In this document: positions 3-11,885 of the stretch, piece after piece
Layout: the number at the start of each line of letters is the position of its first letter
Numbering within the stretch: the first letter of the stretch is position 1
Source of the DNA: DASVDK01 sp036381125 [NCBI: Thermodesulfobacteriota bacterium]
GTDB taxonomy: Bacteria; DASVDK01
Length of the DNA: 18,228 nt
Direction of reading: 5' to 3'
Assembly: GCA_036381125.1 (NCBI GenBank)
Contig: DASVDK010000162.1
Coordinates: 1-18,228, forward strand
The notes under the pieces: generated by a model
What the model saw: only the letters and a program-made list of their open reading frames with translations
The model's database searches: none
Told to the model about the DNA's origin: nothing
Position numbers and translations under genes: made by a program

Positions 3-260
3 CGGGAGATCCGGCACGAGGAGCGGCTTGCGCGCCACGCCGCCATGCGCGCCGCGGCCCGGGCGCGCGAGGTCCGCCATGCCATGGGGGGCGGCCGACC
101 GCCGGTCGTGGACCTGGACCTCGCGGAGGTCTTCCACTGGCGCCGGCTCGGCCGCTCCTTCGAGTGGATCGCCGACGTGCTCGGGGTGTCCGCGGGGACC
201 ATCCGGGCCCGGGTGCGGCAGGCCGGGTTCGCCGATCCCGGGGCGAAGGGTTCCCCGTGA
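3..260 (+). CDS. Small helix-turn-helix protein, 5' end probably outside the window
   Basis: The frame is open from the left edge to the TGA at 258-260. The first in-frame ATG is at 45 (71 residues), but the codons before it already read as a charged helical stretch (EIRHEERLARH), so the real start may lie upstream. The C-terminal half holds a plausible helix-turn-helix: a first helix around FEWIADVLGVS, a turn, then TIRARVRQAGF as recognition helix, like the DNA-binding tails of resolvases and small regulators. No partner domain is visible. Its stop codon overlaps the GTG start of the binding-protein gene (GTGA, 257-260), so it is translationally coupled to the transport operon and could regulate it. 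That role is inference; only the HTH-like pattern is seen. Confidence 0.55.
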   Translation, partial: REIRHEERLARHAAMRAAARAREVRHAMGGGRPPVVDLDLAEVFHWRRLGRSFEWIADVLGVSAGTIRARVRQAGFADPGAKGSP

Positions 261-931
261 GGTGCGTGCCGGCCGTCGTCGCGGCCCTCCTCCTGCTCGG
301 CATGTGCGGCCCTGCCGCCGGGCGCGAGGCGCCGCCCGCCGGCGGCCGCACCGTGATCGACTCGGCCGGCCGCTCGGTGCGCCTGCCGGCGCGGATCGAG
401 CGGGTCTACGCGGCCGGCCACCCGGCAGTCGTCCTCCTCTACACGCTCGCCCCCGACCGGCTCCTCGGTTGGACCCGCCGGCCGACCGAGGAGGAGAAGC
501 CGTTCCTCCTCCCCGCGACCCGCGACCTCCCGGAGTACGGCCGCCTCACGGGCCGCGGCGACACGGCGAACGTGGAGGTCGTCCTCGCCGCGCGGCCCGA
601 CCTGATCCTCGACTACGGCTCCGTCACCCCGACCTCCGCCTCGCTCGCCGGCCGCGGGCGGCTCGCCAGCGTCTCGCTCGAGCAGGTCCTGCTCTGGAAC
701 CCGGAAGTCGTCCTCACGCTCGACTGGGTCTTCTTCGCCGACGGCGTGCGGCGGCCCGAGTGGGAGGGCGTCGATGCAGTCCGAGCCGGGCGCGTCTACA
801 TGGTGCCGAGGCTCCCGTTCCCCTGGTTCGACCGGCCGCCGTCGGTGAACCGCCTGATCGGCGTGCGCTGGCTGCTGCACCTGCTCTACCCCGCCGCCGC
901 GACCGGCGACCTCGGCGAGGCCGCCCGGTGA
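257..931 (+). CDS. Periplasmic substrate-binding protein of a BtuF/FhuD/MolA-type ABC importer, internally shortened
   Basis: Starts at GTG 257, inside the preceding stop codon; 224 residues. Residues 1-22 are a Sec-type signal (RCVPAVVAALLLLGMCGPAAG). Residues 33-130 match the N-lobe of class III binding proteins: VIDSAGRSVRLPARIERVYA, then GRGDTANVEVVLAARPDLIL, then DYGSVTPT. Residues 131-211 match the end of the C-lobe: RGRLASVSLEQVLLWNPEVV, then VRAGRVYMVPRLPFPWFDRP, then PSVNRLIGVRWL. Family members are usually near 300 residues or more. The stretch that normally joins these parts (rest of N-lobe, linker helix, first part of C-lobe, about 100 residues) is absent, and so is the usual C-terminal helix. 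The reading frame stays intact. It would bind a metal chelate, corrinoid, molybdate or tungstate; the downstream Mop gene favours an oxyanion. Whether this short form still binds ligand is doubtful. Confidence 0.8.
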   Translation: MRCVPAVVAALLLLGMCGPAAGREAPPAGGRTVIDSAGRSVRLPARIERVYAAGHPAVVLLYTLAPDRLLGWTRRPTEEEKPFLLPATRDLPEYGRLTGRGDTANVEVVLAARPDLILDYGSVTPTSASLAGRGRLASVSLEQVLLWNPEVVLTLDWVFFADGVRRPEWEGVDAVRAGRVYMVPRLPFPWFDRPPSVNRLIGVRWLLHLLYPAAATGDLGEAAR

Positions 932-2688
932 CGCCGAAGCGGACCGCCGGCCTCGTCGGCCCGGCGCTCGTGCTCCTCGCGCTCGTCCTGGCGTCGTTCG
1001 CCGTCGGCCGGTACCCGGTCTCGCCGCTCGACGTGCTGCGCGTCCTCGCCGGGACGCCACACGACCTGCCGGCGGCGCTCGAGACGGTCGTGCTCCAGAT
1101 CCGGCTGCCGAGGGTGACGGCCGGGATGCTGGTCGGCGCGGCGCTTGCCGCAGCCGGGGCGACCTACCAGAGCCTCTTCCGCAACCCCCTGGTGTCGCCC
1201 GACGTGCTCGGCGTCTCGTCCGGCGCCGGCCTGGGCGCCGCCCTCGGGCTCTTCCTCTCGCTGCCGGTCGCGGCCGTCCAGGGGCTGGCGTTCGCGTTCG
1301 GGCTGGCGGCCGTGGCGATCGCCTACGGCACCGCCGGCGCGGTGAGGCGGACGCACGACCCGGTCCTCGTGCTCGTCCTCGCCGGCGTGGTCGTCGGCAC
1401 GCTCTTCGGCGCCGGGATCTCCCTCCTCAAGTACCTGGCCGACCCGTACGATCAGCTCTCGGCCATCGAGTTCTGGCTCCTCGGCAGCCTGGCGTCCGCG
1501 CGTCTCGACGACCTGGCCGGCGTGGTGCCGGCCGTGGTCCTCGGGCTGCTGCCGCTCGTCCTCCTCAGGTGGCGCATCAACGTCCTCGCCCTGGGGGACG
1601 ACGAGGCGCGCGCGCTCGGCGTCGACGCCAGGCGGCTGCGGCCGGTCGTCGTGGCCGCGGCCACGCTCGTGACGGCGGCCGCCGTCTCGATCACCGGGAT
1701 CATCGGCTGGGTGGGGCTCGTCGTCCCGCACGCGGCGCGCCTGCTCGTCGGTCCCGAGTTCACGCGCCTTCTGCCGACCTCCATGCTCATCGGCGCCGGC
1801 TACCTGCTCGCCGTGGACGACCTGGCGCGCACGGTCGCGCACGTCGAGGTGCCGCTCGGCGTCCTCAACGCGGTCGCCGGTGCGCCGGTCTTCCTCTGGC
1901 TCCTCGCGCGGGCGCTTGCCCTCGGCTACCCCGGCCGGCCGGTCGGCCGTGACGTCTCGCTCGACGTGGCGCCCGGCGAGGTCACGGTCCTGCTCGGCCC
2001 GAACGGCAGCGGCAAGACGACGCTCTTCAAGACGCTCCTCGGCCTCCTCGCGCCCCAGGGGGGAGAGGTCCTCCTCGGCGGCACGAGGCTCGAGCGCATC
2101 CCGCCGCGCGCGCTCGCCCGGACGGCGGCCTACGTCCCGCAGGCCTACACCGGCTACTTCCCCTATACCGTCCTCGACACCGTCCTCATGGGCCGCACCG
2201 CGCGGCTATCGCTCTTCGCGACGCCGTCGCGCGCCGACCGCGCCGTCGCGGCGCGCAGCCTCGACCTCCTCGGGGTCGGCCACCTCGCCGACGCGCCCCT
2301 CACGGCGGTCAGCGGCGGCGAGCGGCAGCTCGTCCTCGTCGCCCGCGCGCTCGCCCAGGAGCCGGCGCTCCTCGTCATGGACGAGCCGACCGCCAGCCTC
2401 GACTTCGGCAACCAGGTGCGCGTCCTCGAGCGGATCGCGCGGCTCGCGGACGAGGGGATCGGGGTCCTCCTCTCGACCCACGACCCCGACCAGGCGTTCC
2501 TCTACGGGGACCGGGTCGCGATCCTGCACGGCGGCCGTCTCGTCGCGCTCGGGTCGCCCGAGGCGGTGATCACGCCGGAGACGCTTCGGGTCGCCTACGG
2601 CGTGGAGGTCGAGGTCGTCCGGCTCGACGGCAGGCGCAGGGTGTGCGTCCCGAGGCTACCCGCGCGGGCGGGCCATCGAGTCCGGTAA
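928..2688 (+). CDS. Fused permease-ATPase of a BtuCD/FecCDE/MolBC-type ABC importer
   Basis: Starts at GTG 928, which overlaps the previous stop (GTGA); 586 residues. Residues 1 to about 328 are a FecCD/BtuC permease with many hydrophobic spans, the NPLVSPDVLG motif (87-96) and GIIGWVGLVVPHAARLLVG (257-275). Residues from about 329 to 586 are the nucleotide-binding domain: A-loop Tyr in ALGYPGRPV (331-339), Walker A GPNGSGKTT (357-365), Q-loop Gln405, signature VSGGE (461-465), Walker B LLVMDEP (481-487) and H-loop His518. In most genomes these are two genes. Here the permease ends FLWLLAR and runs straight into ALALGYPGRPVGRDVSL, so only the last few permease residues, the intergenic gap and the first few ATPase residues are missing. 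All catalytic motifs survive. In a two-subunit importer this gives one permease and one ATPase per chain, so a homodimer would make a full transporter. Confidence 0.88.
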   Translation: MTPKRTAGLVGPALVLLALVLASFAVGRYPVSPLDVLRVLAGTPHDLPAALETVVLQIRLPRVTAGMLVGAALAAAGATYQSLFRNPLVSPDVLGVSSGAGLGAALGLFLSLPVAAVQGLAFAFGLAAVAIAYGTAGAVRRTHDPVLVLVLAGVVVGTLFGAGISLLKYLADPYDQLSAIEFWLLGSLASARLDDLAGVVPAVVLGLLPLVLLRWRINVLALGDDEARALGVDARRLRPVVVAAATLVTAAAVSITGIIGWVGLVVPHAARLLVGPEFTRLLPTSMLIGAGYLLAVDDLARTVAHVEVPLGVLNAVAGAPVFLWLLARALALGYPGRPVGRDVSLDVAPGEVTVLLGPNGSGKTTLFKTLLGLLAPQGGEVLLGGTRLERIPPRALARTAAYVPQAYTGYFPYTVLDTVLMGRTARLSLFATPSRADRAVAARSLDLLGVGHLADAPLTAVSGGERQLVLVARALAQEPALLVMDEPTASLDFGNQVRVLERIARLADEGIGVLLSTHDPDQAFLYGDRVAILHGGRLVALGSPEAVITPETLRVAYGVEVEVVRLDGRRRVCVPRLPARAGHRVR

Positions 2689-2703: not shown

Positions 2704-2916
2704 ATGGCGAAGATCAGCGGGCGGAACAAGCTCCCCGCCACGGTGAAGCAGGTGGTCAGGGACGGCGTGATGGCCAAGGTGGTGCTCGACGGCCCGGGCG
2801 GCGTGGAGATCACCGCCGTCATCACGGCCGACGCGGCGGACGACCTCGGCCTCGCGACGGGTCAGAAGGTCACCGCTCTCATCAAGGCCACCGAGATCAT
2901 GGTCATGAAGGACTGA
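2704..2916 (+). CDS. mop: Molbindin, molybdate/tungstate-binding Mop domain protein
   Basis: The ATG at 2704 is preceded by GGAGGA (2691-2696) at a 7-base gap; a GTG at 2698 would add two residues but overlaps the ribosome-binding site. The product is 70 residues, the usual size of a single Mop/TOBE domain. It opens with SGRNKLPATVKQVVRDGVMA and continues with VVLDGPGGVEITAVIT, GLATGQKVTALIKATEIMVM; SxRNxLxGxV-like openings and the closing IKxTxVM strand are hallmarks of molbindins. These proteins assemble into hexamers that store molybdate or tungstate in the cytoplasm. It follows the fused transporter by 15 bases, so it is probably co-transcribed with it and suggests that the importer carries an oxyanion. 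The gene is followed by a strong hairpin. Confidence 0.9.
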   Translation: MAKISGRNKLPATVKQVVRDGVMAKVVLDGPGGVEITAVITADAADDLGLATGQKVTALIKATEIMVMKD

Positions 2917-3091: not shown

Positions 3092-4300
3092 CTAGCGGAA
3101 CACGCTGGTCCAGACCTGGGTGCCGCTGCTCGTGGTCTCGACCCAGGCGGTGACGGTCGCCGAGCCGTCCATCGCGACCCGCGGCGCGCTGCCGTCGCCG
3201 GTCGAGCTCGACTGCAGCTTCGTCGCCGAGGCCCACCCGCTGGCCGTGGCGTACCGGCGCGCCCAGATGACGCCCCGACCCACGTCCTGCGTCCAGACCA
3301 CGGTCGCGTTGCCGGCGCCGTCCATCGCGACGCGAGGCTCGAGGGCGGTCCCGGCGAGGTCGCTCTCGAGGCCCTGGGCGGCCTGCCAGACGCCGCCCGA
3401 GAGCCGGCTCGACCGGACCCGGTAGTCCGAGCCCTCGAGCCTCACCCAGACCGCGACCGCGTCTCCGCTCGCGTCCATCGCCACCTGCGGCGCGGCCGCC
3501 TCGGCATCCACGGCGTCGGTGGCATCGACGGGCGCCCCGGCGGTCCAGGTGCCGGAGGCGGCGTCGAAGCGGCTGGCCCAGACGCGCGCGCCGGACCCGC
3601 CGCTGTTGGCCTGGAGCCAGACCGCCACGGCGTTGCCCTCGTCGTCGATCGCGACGCGCGGATGGGCCGCGTCGGTGTCCTCCGACTCGAGCGGCTCCGG
3701 CGAGGTCCAGCTCTCGTCGGCGGCGTCGTACCGGGTCGCGTAGACGCTGGCCGAGGTCCCGTCGGACTCCGTCCAGACGACCACGAGGTGGTTACCCGCC
3801 GACGTGGCGGCGTGCGCCCCCGTCACCTCCCCGCCGCCGTCGAGGGGCACGCTCCCCTCGAAGCCGGGGATGTCGGTCCGGTATCTGTTCGCCCAGAGCG
3901 TCGATCGGTTCGAGAAGTCCTCCTGCAGCCAGACGGCGATGCCGCTGCCGGTGCCGTCCATCGCGACATACGGCCTCGTGGCGCCGAGGCTCACGCCGTC
4001 GTCGAGCTTCACCGGGGTGGCGCCCCAGCCGGTCGACGGCTCGTACCGCAGGGCCAGGATCTCGTTGCGCCCCGTCGTCGCGTTCTCCTGGGACCAGATG
4101 GCGAGGGCCGCCCCGCTCGCATCCATCGCGAGCTCCGGGGTCTCGACGGCGGTCGTCGCCGCGTCGAGCGGCCCGACGGGCGAGGCCCAGCCCCCCGCCG
4201 GGGTATACCGGCGCGCGAGCAGGTCTGTGGCGCTTCCCACGCTCACGAACGTGAGGAGCGCGCCGCCGGCGCCGTCCATGGCGACGCGAGGCTCGGCCGT
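3092..4300 (-). repeat. Tandem in-gene repeats coding the PRVAMDG blades
   Basis: The plus strand repeatedly shows GTCCATCGCGAC or close variants (near 3168, 3320, 3474, 3958, 4122, 4276, with ATCGATCGCGAC-like variants near 3647), spaced about 150-165 bases or multiples of this. This is the reverse complement of the codons for VAMDG/VAMDA. The high DNA similarity of the core codons suggests blade duplication or strong codon constraint. Confidence 0.65.
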
Positions 4301-4444
4301 GGGCGTCGTCGTGCCGCCCGCGTTCGTCGGCGGGGCCCAGCCGGTCTTGGGCGCCTTCTTTACCTTGCAGCCCCCCACGGAGACCGAGACGAGGGCCACG
4401 AGGATCCACGCGGTGATCGAGGTGACATGTCGAGGCGCGAGCAT
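3092..4444 (-). CDS. Repeat lipoprotein, probable beta-propeller
   Basis: The start chosen is the ATG at 4444, preceded by AAGGAG nine bases upstream; the frame stays open for 42 more codons but those residues do not look like a signal. The 450-residue product begins with a lipoprotein signal: MLAPRHVTSITAWILVALVS, then VSVGGC, with lipidation Cys26. After a short linker come about eight repeats of 45-55 residues. Each has a core like PRVAMDGAGNATVVWTQ followed by a strand like VWARRYxxxxGW; variants include PELAMDASGAALAIWSQ, PYVAMDGTGSGIAVWLQ and PRVAIDDEGNAVAVWLQ. Such Asp/Gly-turn, Trp-ending repeats fit an eight-bladed propeller with each repeat giving one blade. No catalytic motif is seen. 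It is likely anchored in the outer membrane. The function is unknown; ligand or protein binding is the reasonable guess. Confidence 0.82.
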   Translation of the reverse strand: MLAPRHVTSITAWILVALVSVSVGGCKVKKAPKTGWAPPTNAGGTTTPTAEPRVAMDGAGGALLTFVSVGSATDLLARRYTPAGGWASPVGPLDAATTAVETPELAMDASGAALAIWSQENATTGRNEILALRYEPSTGWGATPVKLDDGVSLGATRPYVAMDGTGSGIAVWLQEDFSNRSTLWANRYRTDIPGFEGSVPLDGGGEVTGAHAATSAGNHLVVVWTESDGTSASVYATRYDAADESWTSPEPLESEDTDAAHPRVAIDDEGNAVAVWLQANSGGSGARVWASRFDAASGTWTAGAPVDATDAVDAEAAAPQVAMDASGDAVAVWVRLEGSDYRVRSSRLSGGVWQAAQGLESDLAGTALEPRVAMDGAGNATVVWTQDVGRGVIWARRYATASGWASATKLQSSSTGDGSAPRVAMDGSATVTAWVETTSSGTQVWTSVFR

Positions 4445-4457
4445 ATCCGCGTACTCC

Positions 4458-4541
4458 TTACCTACCCGGGGGCAGGCACCCGTCCAACACGATGCGCGTG
4501 ACCCCGGCGATGTCGCGGGCGTGACCGTACAGGGTCTCCAC
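4458..4541 (-). CDS. Possible 27-residue leader peptide or gene remnant upstream of the lipoprotein
   Basis: A minus-strand frame opens after a TAA at 4578-4580 and ends at TAA 4458-4460, immediately before the ribosome-binding site of the lipoprotein gene. From GTG 4541 it reads VETLYGHARDIAGVTRIVLD then GCLPPGR; upstream in frame are VCLASA. The composition looks protein-like, unlike most shadow frames here. It could be a coupled leader peptide or the tail of a lost gene. I do not recognise it, and chance is a real alternative. Confidence 0.2.
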   Translation of the reverse strand: METLYGHARDIAGVTRIVLDGCLPPGR

Positions 4542-4552
4542 GGCGGAGGCAA
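4524..4552 (-). promoter_or_regulatory. Weak sigma70-like promoter candidate for the lipoprotein gene
   Basis: On the minus strand TTGCCT (4547-4552) and TACGGT (4524-4529) are separated by 17 bases, and lie about 80 bases upstream of the ATG at 4444. The -10 match is poor. It would conflict with the small reading frame at 4458-4541 if that were translated from its own start. Confidence 0.22.
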
Positions 4553-4694
4553 GGCAAACTCTGGGGTCAAATGAACCTTACTGGGGCCAGGCCCGAGGCC
4601 GGCGGTCGACGGCCCCGATCGGGACCGGGCTCCGCGCGCGCGTGGCGCGGGGCCCCGATGGGGTGGCGGATCCCGAGGTCGGCGCGGCGTCCCG

Positions 4695-9239: not shown

Positions 9240-9320
9240 GCCGAATCATACACACTCCGCATCGATCCGTGTCATATCATGTATTGGACGCAGACGACTC
9301 CGCCTGGTATCCCTTCCGGC
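9240..9320. promoter_or_regulatory. Divergent LysR/modA control region
   Basis: This 81-base gap holds one of the few AT-rich patches in the window (about 9245-9286). ATCATACAC (9245-9253) and GTGTCATATCAT (9269-9280) form an imperfect inverted repeat with ACAC/GTGT at the inner edges, which suits a LysR site. TATCAT at 9275-9280 could act as a -10 toward modA, without a good -35. Specific site positions are tentative. Confidence 0.4.
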
Positions 9321-10112
9321 ATGCACCGGCGCACCCTGATCGGCCTCCTGGTCGCCGTCGGCCTCCCGGTCGCCGGCGTCGCCCTGCCGCGCGCGCCCGC
9401 GGGGGCGGCGCCCGCGCCCACGCTCACGGTCTTCGGCGCGTCAGACCTGGCGTTCGCCTTCGAGGCGATCGTGCCGCGCTTCGAGCGGGCGACCGGCGCG
9501 AGGGTGACGCTCGTGCTCGGCTCCACCGGGAACCTCGCGAAGCAGATCGAGAACGGCGCGCCGGCGGACGCCTTCTTCGCGGCAAACGTCGGCTTCGTCG
9601 ACGCGCTCGCCGCGTCCTCCGCGGTGCGCCCGGAGTCGCGGACCCTGTACGCGCGAGGCCGGATCGTCCTCGCGACCACGCGGAGGTCGGGCCTCCGGCT
9701 GTCGTCCCTGACCGATCTCCGCCGGCCGGAGGTGAAGCGCATCGCGATCGCCAACCCGGAGCACGCCCCGTACGGGCAGGCGGCCCGGGAGGCACTCGAG
9801 ACCGCCGGCCTCTGGGACGAGGTGCGGCCGAGGCTCGTGTACGGCGAGAACATCCGCCATACGCTGCAGTACCTCCAGTCGGGTGCGGTGGAGGCGGCGA
9901 TCGTCGCGCTGTCGATCGCCGACGTACCGGGGATCGACTCGGTGCCGATCGACGCGAGCCTCCACCGCCCGATCGATCAGGCGGCCGCCGTGACGACGCG
10001 CAGCCGACAGCCCGACCTCGCCCTCGCCTTCATCCGGTTCGTGACGGGCCCCGAGGGCCGGCCGATCATGGAGCGCTACGGCTTCGCCCTGCCGCCCTCC
10101 GGGGGTTCCTAG
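9321..10112 (+). CDS. modA: Molybdate ABC transporter, periplasmic binding protein ModA
   Basis: 263 residues from ATG 9321, which begins a normal signal peptide (MHRRTLIGLLVAVGLPVAGV, cleavage near AGA-AP). An in-frame ATG at 9279 would add 14 residues before the signal. Mature protein: TLTVFGASDLAFAFEAIVPR with ligand Ser41, VTLVLGSTGNLAKQIENGAP with Ser68, then ADAFFAANVGFVDAL, IAIANPEHAPYGQAAREALE, VYGENIRHTLQYLQSGAVEA and FIRFVTGPEGRPIMERYGF. These are ModA signatures: the first and second loops supply serines to the oxyanion. The tyrosine that E. coli ModA uses near the second lobe appears replaced in AAIVALSIA, so selectivity between molybdate and tungstate is open. It leads modABC. 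Confidence 0.92.
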   Translation: MHRRTLIGLLVAVGLPVAGVALPRAPAGAAPAPTLTVFGASDLAFAFEAIVPRFERATGARVTLVLGSTGNLAKQIENGAPADAFFAANVGFVDALAASSAVRPESRTLYARGRIVLATTRRSGLRLSSLTDLRRPEVKRIAIANPEHAPYGQAAREALETAGLWDEVRPRLVYGENIRHTLQYLQSGAVEAAIVALSIADVPGIDSVPIDASLHRPIDQAAAVTTRSRQPDLALAFIRFVTGPEGRPIMERYGFALPPSGGS

Positions 10113-10119
10113 AGGAGCC

Positions 10120-10773
10120 GTGGACCTCTTCCCGCTCCGCCTCTCGCTCGCCGTCTCGGTGGCCGCCACGGCGCTCACGCTGGCGGTGGGGCTCCCCCTC
10201 GCCTGGCTGCTCGCCCGCCGGCGCTTCCCGGGGCGCGACCTGCTCGAGGCCGCCGTCGTGCTCCCGCTGGTCCTGCCGCCCACGGTACTCGGCTACTACC
10301 TCCTCACGCTCGTCGGCGCACGCGGACCGATCGGCCGCGCGCTCGGGGCGGTCGGGATCGATCTGGCCTTCACGCCGAAGGCGGCCGTGCTGGCCGCGTC
10401 GGTCGCCTCGATCGCGCTCCTCGTCAAGGCGGCGCAGGCCGGATTCGCGTCGGTCGACACCCGCCTCGAGCAGGCCGCCCGTACGCTCGGCCGCTCGGAG
10501 TGGCAGGTCTTCTGGTCCGTGACGCTCCCGCTCGCCTGGCGCTCGGTCCTGGCCGGGGCCGTCCTCGCCTTCTGCCGCGCGTTCGGCGACTTCGGCATCA
10601 CGCTCATGGTGGCGGGCAGCATCCCGGGCGTCACCCAGACGGTGCCGCTCGCGATCTACGACCGGGTGCAGGCCAACCGGATGGACGAGGCGAACGCGCT
10701 CTCGCTGCTCGCGGTCGGCGTCGTGGCGCTCCTCCTGGTCGGCCTCGGCCGGCTCGCGCGGCTCCGCTTCTGA
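10120..10773 (+). CDS. modB: Molybdate ABC transporter permease ModB
   Basis: 217 residues from GTG 10120, with AGAGGAG just before it and only seven bases after the modA stop. It has about five hydrophobic spans and the ModB/CysT permease signatures: VVLPLVLPPTVLGYYLLTLV (46-65), the cytoplasmic EAA loop at about 117-138 (EQAARTLGRSEWQVFWSVTL), and FGDFGITLMVAGSIPGVTQT. The length matches ModB (about 225). The EAA loop docks on ModC. It forms the membrane channel of the importer as a dimer. Confidence 0.95.
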   Translation: MDLFPLRLSLAVSVAATALTLAVGLPLAWLLARRRFPGRDLLEAAVVLPLVLPPTVLGYYLLTLVGARGPIGRALGAVGIDLAFTPKAAVLAASVASIALLVKAAQAGFASVDTRLEQAARTLGRSEWQVFWSVTLPLAWRSVLAGAVLAFCRAFGDFGITLMVAGSIPGVTQTVPLAIYDRVQANRMDEANALSLLAVGVVALLLVGLGRLARLRF

Positions 10774-10775
10774 CC

Positions 10776-11885
10776 ATGCTCTCGCTCGCCATCGAGAAGC
10801 GCCTCGACGGCTTCGTGCTCGACGCCGCGTGGGAGGCGGGCGACGAGGTCGTGGCGCTCTTCGGGCACTCGGGCGCCGGCAAGAGCCTCACGCTCCAGTG
10901 CCTGGCCGGCCTCGTGCGCCCGGACGCGGGTCGCATCGTCGTCGACGGCGCGGTCCTCTTCGACCACGCGCGCGGCATCCACGTCCGCCCCCAGGCCCGC
11001 CGGCTCGGCTACGTGTTCCAGGGGTACGCCCTCTTCCCGCACCTCACGGTCGAGGCCAACGTCGGCTTCGGCCTGGCCGGCAAGGCGCGCGGCGCGCGGC
11101 GCGCGCGCACGGCCGAGGTGATCGCCCGCCTCGGCCTCACGGGGCTCGAGCGTCGCTACCCGCGGGAGCTGTCGGGCGGCCAGCAGCAACGGGTGGCGCT
11201 CGGCCGCGCCCTCGCGGCCGACCCGGCCATGCTCCTCCTCGACGAGCCGCTCTCGGCGCTCGACGCGCCCCTTCGCCGCCAGCTCAGGGACGAGCTGGCG
11301 GACGTGATCCGCGAGTGGCGCGTGCCGACCGTGCTCGTGACGCACGACCTGGCCGAGGCCTTCCAGCTCGCCGACCGGATCGTCGTGTACGAGGAGGGCC
11401 GGGTCGTGCAGGCGGCGCCGAAGTCGGAGATCCTCTCGCGGCCCGCCTCCGAGCGGGTGGCACGTCTCTTCGGCGTCCGCAACATCCTGCGCGGACGGGT
11501 CGTCGACGCCTCGGCCGGCGCGATCCGCCTCGCCTGGCAGGGTCACGTCCTCACCGCTGCCAACTCCCCCTCGCAGCCCTTCCTGCCGCCGCGGGGCGCG
11601 GAGGTGGCCTTCTTCGTGCGCCCCGAGTACGTGCGGCTCGTCCGCAAGGACCGGCCGGCGCCCGAGGCGCAGAACCGCCTCACCGGCCGGATCGTCGGCG
11701 AGGTGGACATGGGGACGAGCTGGGTGCTCCGCATGGCCGTGGACGGCGGCACCGGCCGCACGTCCGGGCCCGACCTCGAGGTCGAGGTCCCGACGATGGT
11801 CTACGAGATGCTCGGCCTCGCCCGCGACCGGACCTGGCAGCTCACGATCCAGCCCGCCGCCATCCAGGTTCTCCCTTCCGGCTGA
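10776..11885 (+). CDS. modC: Molybdate ABC transporter ATP-binding protein ModC
   Basis: 369 residues from ATG 10776, two bases after the modB stop. ATPase motifs are complete: Walker A GHSGAGKS (30-37), Q-loop in VFQGYALFPHLTV (Gln82), signature LSGGQQQR (132-139), Walker B MLLLDEPLSALD (152-163), H-loop His190. The LFPHL and HVRPQARRLGYVFQ segments are characteristic of ModC. Residues 235-369 form the C-terminal regulatory region with TOBE-like strands (FFVRPEYVRLV, NRLTGRIVGEVDMGTSW, LEVEVPTMVYEMLG), which in relatives binds oxyanion and inhibits transport. It is the last gene of modABC and converges on the mutS-like gene. Confidence 0.95.
   Translation: MLSLAIEKRLDGFVLDAAWEAGDEVVALFGHSGAGKSLTLQCLAGLVRPDAGRIVVDGAVLFDHARGIHVRPQARRLGYVFQGYALFPHLTVEANVGFGLAGKARGARRARTAEVIARLGLTGLERRYPRELSGGQQQRVALGRALAADPAMLLLDEPLSALDAPLRRQLRDELADVIREWRVPTVLVTHDLAEAFQLADRIVVYEEGRVVQAAPKSEILSRPASERVARLFGVRNILRGRVVDASAGAIRLAWQGHVLTAANSPSQPFLPPRGAEVAFFVRPEYVRLVRKDRPAPEAQNRLTGRIVGEVDMGTSWVLRMAVDGGTGRTSGPDLEVEVPTMVYEMLGLARDRTWQLTIQPAAIQVLPSG

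Follow-up and report, generated by a model that had tools for sequence, protein, structure and literature searches.

The closest described relatives of the locus studied here are the MolABC importer of Haemophilus influenzae (HI1470-1472; PDB 2nq2, 3psa/3psh) and the vitamin B12 importer BtuCDF, which belongs to the same type II family. In H. influenzae, MolBC-A imports molybdate with low affinity and operates beside ModBC-A, and deletion of mol had no effect on uptake at low molybdate, as described in the accessible part of a first report (PMC4031551). Gene fusions born from deletions, in which the loss of DNA joins neighboring genes into a new ORF, are found across bacteria according to the accessible part of a second report (PMC12803068). 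We analyzed an 18,228-nucleotide stretch of contig DASVDK010000162.1, hereafter called the window, which contains a MolABC-type operon with a shortened binding protein and a permease joined to its ATPase. Provided that the assembly is right, this structure is unusual. Our preferred reading, which we hold to be reasonably probable, is that the binding protein was lost through deletions mediated by short direct repeats and that the permease-ATPase core was fused but is otherwise undamaged.

Operon layout and genomic context

The operon consists of a binding-protein ORF, a permease-ATPase ORF and a Mop gene, in this order (Table 1). The binding-protein ORF uses a GTG start and encodes 224 residues (coding 257-928, with the stop ending at 931), and its stop overlaps the permease start in a GTGA. 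A sequence-only reading of this DNA had described the permease as running directly into the ATPase, and we indeed find a single open frame of 586 codons for both (928-2688), an arrangement present in none of 100 distinct relatives having both genes (103 loci minus three duplicates). The permease part is whole apart from its last few residues, and its best solved match is the H. influenzae permease (2nq2_A, E 1.4e-61). The ATPase part lacks its first few residues; the motifs GPNGSGKTT, SGGER and LLVMDEPT, which we take to be Walker A, the signature and Walker B, are all there, as had been claimed.

Table 1. Coordinates of the operon, its joins and neighboring molybdenum-related genes in the window
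Feature	Position	Strand	Basis or remark
MolA/BtuF-like binding-protein gene	257..931	+	PF01497, two-piece profile match, alignment with 14 relatives
Join 1, GCCGGCCGCG	647..656	+	sole copy left of a repeat doubled in L009
Join 2, C-terminal deletion of about 84-87 nt	893..928	+	tail and permease distance
FecCD-family permease part of fused ORF	928..1911	+	PF01032 2-311 of 311, E 4e-85
Join 3, Ala-Arg codons, permease ...LLAR meets ATPase LEAR...	1906..1911	+	35-nt net loss
ABC ATPase part of fused ORF	1906..2688	+	PF00005 3-137 of 137, E 6e-29
Mop (molybdenum-pterin binding) protein gene, adjoining the operon	2704..2916	+	PF03459; TIGR00638 over cut-off
Separate full-length ModABC molybdate importer	9300..11885	+	TIGR01256, TIGR02141 over cut-off

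Relatives were collected by a search of contigs, which gave 152, the best 80 of these being used as loci, and were further sought by DNA in 274 genomes (class of G004) and by protein in 398 genomes (phylum of G004) and 297 genomes (phylum of G001). Neither a close relative nor the same joins were found among the contig relatives or in the 274, 398 and 297 genomes. None of these searches showed a permease/ATPase fusion, and in the protein searches of the 398 and 297 genomes the matches spanning both genes carry one stop each. Viral contigs gave no match to the operon; the best plasmid match, among the five highest of at least 5000 records, reaches about 62%, and the best permease match in the relatives searched reaches 68%. 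Mop-like ORFs occur in 25 of the 80 relative loci, and in the window the Mop gene provides a genetic link to molybdenum genes.

Point decay in the operon is slight. Near-invariant columns, defined as those shared by 97% or more of the relatives, are changed at 0/30 positions in what is left of the binding protein, 0/40 in the ATPase and 3/74 in the permease, where an I became L and two T residues became E and N, and there is no stop inside the operon genes, though the binding protein carries large deletions. This leaves three possibilities: recent deletions, artefacts, or a core that remains under selection. We rejected a long-dead pseudogene on the basis of this slight point decay.

The ModABC set lies 6.6 kb downstream of the shortened operon, and its ATPase matches TIGR02142 and PhnT2, both under cut-off; redundancy with the MolABC-type operon is possible. 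The whole operon could accordingly be a young pseudogene, its permease and ATPase dead as well and dispensable owing to ModABC, and it would fit this explanation that the fusion costs the permease its last residues and the ATPase its first ones, along with any linker. We nevertheless regard it as rather unlikely, given the few near-invariant changes in ATPase and permease and the purifying selection on MolBC without MolA in relatives (see below). The remaining window genes tested have whole domains. On the minus strand, positions 3092-4570 encode a 492-residue protein in which AMDGxGxAxxVW-like segments recur. Pfam gave no match to it at E 0.001, and by eye it resembles a repeat or propeller protein.

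The shortened binding protein

Aligned to a profile of 30 full-length relatives, the binding protein gives two separate matches, to positions 15-124 and 226-317 of 346. Profile positions 125-225 (∼101 middle residues) and 318-346 (29 C-terminal residues) are absent, in agreement with the earlier claims that about 100 middle residues and the C-terminal helix are lacking. Two conserved motifs are 79 residues apart in the window and 178-183 in all 42 relatives having both motifs (11 more were set aside, as a motif match was lacking). The tail past PPSVNRL comprises 24 residues, compared with 45-58 in relatives (n = 42), and the distance to the permease is 242 nt, compared with a modal 326 nt. A normal family length of 224 residues, which the earlier reading had named as grounds for refutation, was rejected on the motif distances, which are longer in 42/42 relatives, and on the two-piece profile match.

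The best-scoring relative of the binding protein, from a Burkholderiales MAG (L009), carries a 10-bp direct repeat, GCCGGACGCG, with one copy at each edge of precisely the 303 nt that are missing in the window. A repeat-mediated process, one of the explanations offered by the sequence-only reading, is thereby supported at join 1; at the permease/ATPase join it is plausible. The L009 binding-protein ORF contains three 10-mer direct repeats, of which the join-1 repeat is one, and among the 44 relatives tested this repeat is long in L009 only, three others having 5-6 bp and the rest <5 bp, which counts against a repeat-mediated reading of this join. The GCTCGCC direct repeat noticed earlier is real (643-649 and 661-667), but both of its copies are inside kept sequence, and the single GCCGGCCGCG is the likelier deletion footprint. 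For join 2, an exact place and a repeat were not found within 893-928, and this too counts against repeat mediation.

The closest solved structure, by sequence (E 3.4e-25) and by model, is the solute-binding protein 4pag from Sulfurospirillum deleyianum. The model of full-length L009 (pLDDT 91.7, pTM 0.88) matches 4pag with a Z-score of 37.7 (r.m.s.d. 2.1, 314 aligned residues). The corresponding values for the window protein are pLDDT 78.7, pTM 0.64, Z 9.6, r.m.s.d. 6.3 and 187 aligned residues, with pLDDT <50 at 123-135, where join 1 lies, models of truncated proteins being weak evidence alone. In the L009 model, the block missing in the window comprises three strands (141-145, 196-201 and 207-209), helices 148-162, 217-221 and 227-231, and a long inter-lobe helix (165-186), whereas the last helices, 319-331 and 337-347, wholly or mostly make up the missing tail. 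The operon does not encode a two-lobed binding protein with an inter-lobe helix. Loss of this helix and of part of the C-lobe makes a working MolA/BtuF-type receptor unlikely, and to judge from the models the 224-residue product is most likely not such a receptor.

We therefore give a very low probability to a functional shortened importer served by a minimal binding protein. In its favor, the frames are open, the GTGA overlap with the permease is kept and none of the 30 near-invariant columns in the kept part is changed, but the inter-lobe helix and the first C-lobe strands are gone, the join is modeled at pLDDT <50 and the form is seen in none of the relatives measured. The earlier suggestion that the importer works in shortened form is unlikely as far as the binding protein is concerned, and may hold for the permease-ATPase.

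The permease/ATPase join and the open frames

From the permease GxPxF motif to Walker A we count 102 nt in the window and 137 nt in 49 of 74 relatives, the minimum being 131. This length is 2 modulo 3 in 68 of the 74, which places the ATPase there in a different frame from the permease. Join 3 thus represents a net loss of 35 nt, by which two overlapping frames became one. A whole-codon deletion is ruled out by the size of the loss and by the 2-modulo-3 lengths, and at the level of the DNA this join contradicts the earlier statement that every join keeps frame. Repeats of 5-8 bp at the place and offset of join 3 occur in 9 of 58 relatives (junction 131-140 nt). Repeats of at least 7 bp are found at offset 26 in eight relatives versus four at offset 35; other offsets thus match offset 35 in long repeats, which counts against a repeat origin of join 3.

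Random decay, it had been argued, would have produced stops or frameshifts. We find instead that repeats are mostly codon-phased and that wrong frames are also open. In 11 genes of the window (GC3 0.94-0.99) we counted pairs of direct repeats separated by 20-600 nt. For word lengths from 6 to 12, the fraction in codon phase was 0.66, 0.72, 0.79, 0.84, 0.88, 0.93 and 0.94, respectively. For 8-mers the fraction ranges in relatives from 0.56 (GC3 0.3-0.4, 5 genes) to 0.88 (GC3 >0.9, 26 genes), and from 0.49 to 0.83 in codon-shuffled copies of the relatives' genes; as the shuffled copies are nearly as phased, codon composition explains most of the in-phase excess. Between permease ends and ATPase starts, 64-78% of repeats link both own frames (44 relatives, GC3 at least 0.8). 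We estimate that three repeat-mediated deletions all leave the frame open with a chance of ∼0.4, versus 1/27 for random breakpoints.

The permease frame is open across the entire binding-protein gene, giving an 886-residue ORF from position 28 (28-2688, plus strand). At this base composition, wrong frames thus seldom meet stops. Since repeats in GC3-rich coding DNA are mostly codon-phased, frame keeping has little weight as evidence, and the frames would be open mainly for this reason rather than because selection filtered the events. More generally, an open frame after a deletion in a GC3-rich genome is a weak sign of selection. No statement of this codon-phase effect was met in the titles or abstract openings searched, and it may still be published.

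In the preferred reading, deletions of about 303 nt and about 84-87 nt, presumably by slippage, would have eliminated the inter-lobe helix together with some of the C-lobe, as well as the C-terminal helices, and with them receptor function; a third loss, 35 nt at similar Ala-Arg codons, would have merged the overlapping permease and ATPase genes. Alternatively, the true operon may be full-length, and short overlaps in very GC-rich, thinly covered DNA may have been misjoined during amplification, assembly or gap closing. The concentration of three joins within 2.4 kb of one operon, the little point decay in the remainder and the absence of the same joins from all 100 distinct relatives, the place where the earlier reading had proposed to look for them, would agree with an artefact. 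We think an artefact unlikely, because a 10-bp overlap is shorter than usual assembly k-mers, a coverage gap would be expected to exceed 35 nt and the other window genes tested keep whole domains. Frame preservation argues neither for nor against it.

MolBC without MolA, and comparison with described importers

Among 79 loci with a permease, 16 gave no binding-protein match. We set aside three of them (L051 is cut short, L065 has a divergent binding protein and L024 has its own on another contig), and thus 13 relatives keep MolBC while MolA is degraded or undetected. In L010, about 46 C-terminal MolA codons are kept just before an intact MolB gene, adjoining TupA-like and MOT1-like genes (scanned). 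In L021, a C-terminal MolA remnant behind a TAG stop directly precedes an intact MolB gene and adjoins a stretch read by eye as TupA- and ModA-like. These remnants, with TupA-like sequence just upstream in both loci, are MolA loss seen in progress. A search of 19 genomes with the L009 protein detected MolA in six, namely five MolA-bearing controls and the genome of L024; the genome of L021 gave its remnant only, and in the other 12 no match reached E 1e-12.

One or two PF01497 proteins are present in each of the 13 MolA-less genomes. In 12 of them no FecCD match at E 1e-20 was found besides the MolB-like permease, and the PF01497 proteins mostly lie away from any such permease; G972 has two FecCD permeases, one beside a PF01497 gene. 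A single FecCD permease is also found in two of three MolA-bearing genomes searched and is not peculiar to MolA-less ones. Ten regions of 8-11 kb round PF01497 genes (L122-L131, from nine of the 13 genomes) contain no FecCD permease or ABC ATPase, and the four PF01497 proteins scanned from them are BtuF-like, under the BtuF cut-off. In four loci from gammaproteobacterial MAGs (L003, L006, L036 and L062), a subtilase-family (PF00082) gene is located upstream of the MolA-less MolBC pair.

For seven MolA-less gammaproteobacterial loci, the permease dN/dS is 0.07-0.14 over 21 pairs and that of the ATPase 0.09-0.25 over 19 of these pairs (the other two are saturated), with dS >1 in many pairs. Six MolA-bearing pairs give 0.03-0.10 and 0.06-0.10, and four betaproteobacterial pairs 0.12-0.31 and 0.22-0.37, respectively. 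Low dN/dS without MolA indicates that the MolBC core can be kept, somewhat less strictly, where MolA is not found, its absence being provisional because the genomes are mostly MAGs of unstated completeness. By analogy with these relatives, the fused permease-ATPase of the window may be active, perhaps with another binding protein. There is a small but appreciable chance that MolBC sheds MolA and works via an unlinked binding protein, in which case the window would capture MolA leaving and the core as a single-chain permease-ATPase. How MolBC stays under purifying selection in lineages without detectable MolA is a testable question.

The operon resembles MolABC of H. influenzae in its set of binding-protein, permease and ATPase genes, as in most relatives, and has a Mop gene alongside. 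It differs in that the binding protein is shortened twice and permease and ATPase form one chain, and molybdate or tungstate is its candidate substrate. NCBIfam BtuC models match the window under cut-off, but the permease is closer by sequence to HI1471 than to BtuCDF, and the Mop neighbor points to molybdenum rather than B12. 4pag is full-length, and the window binding protein aligns to it as two segments, its middle part being absent. Compared with the deletion-born fusions described in the accessible part of PMC12803068, the partners joined here belong to one operon and one complex, and both domains are nearly whole.
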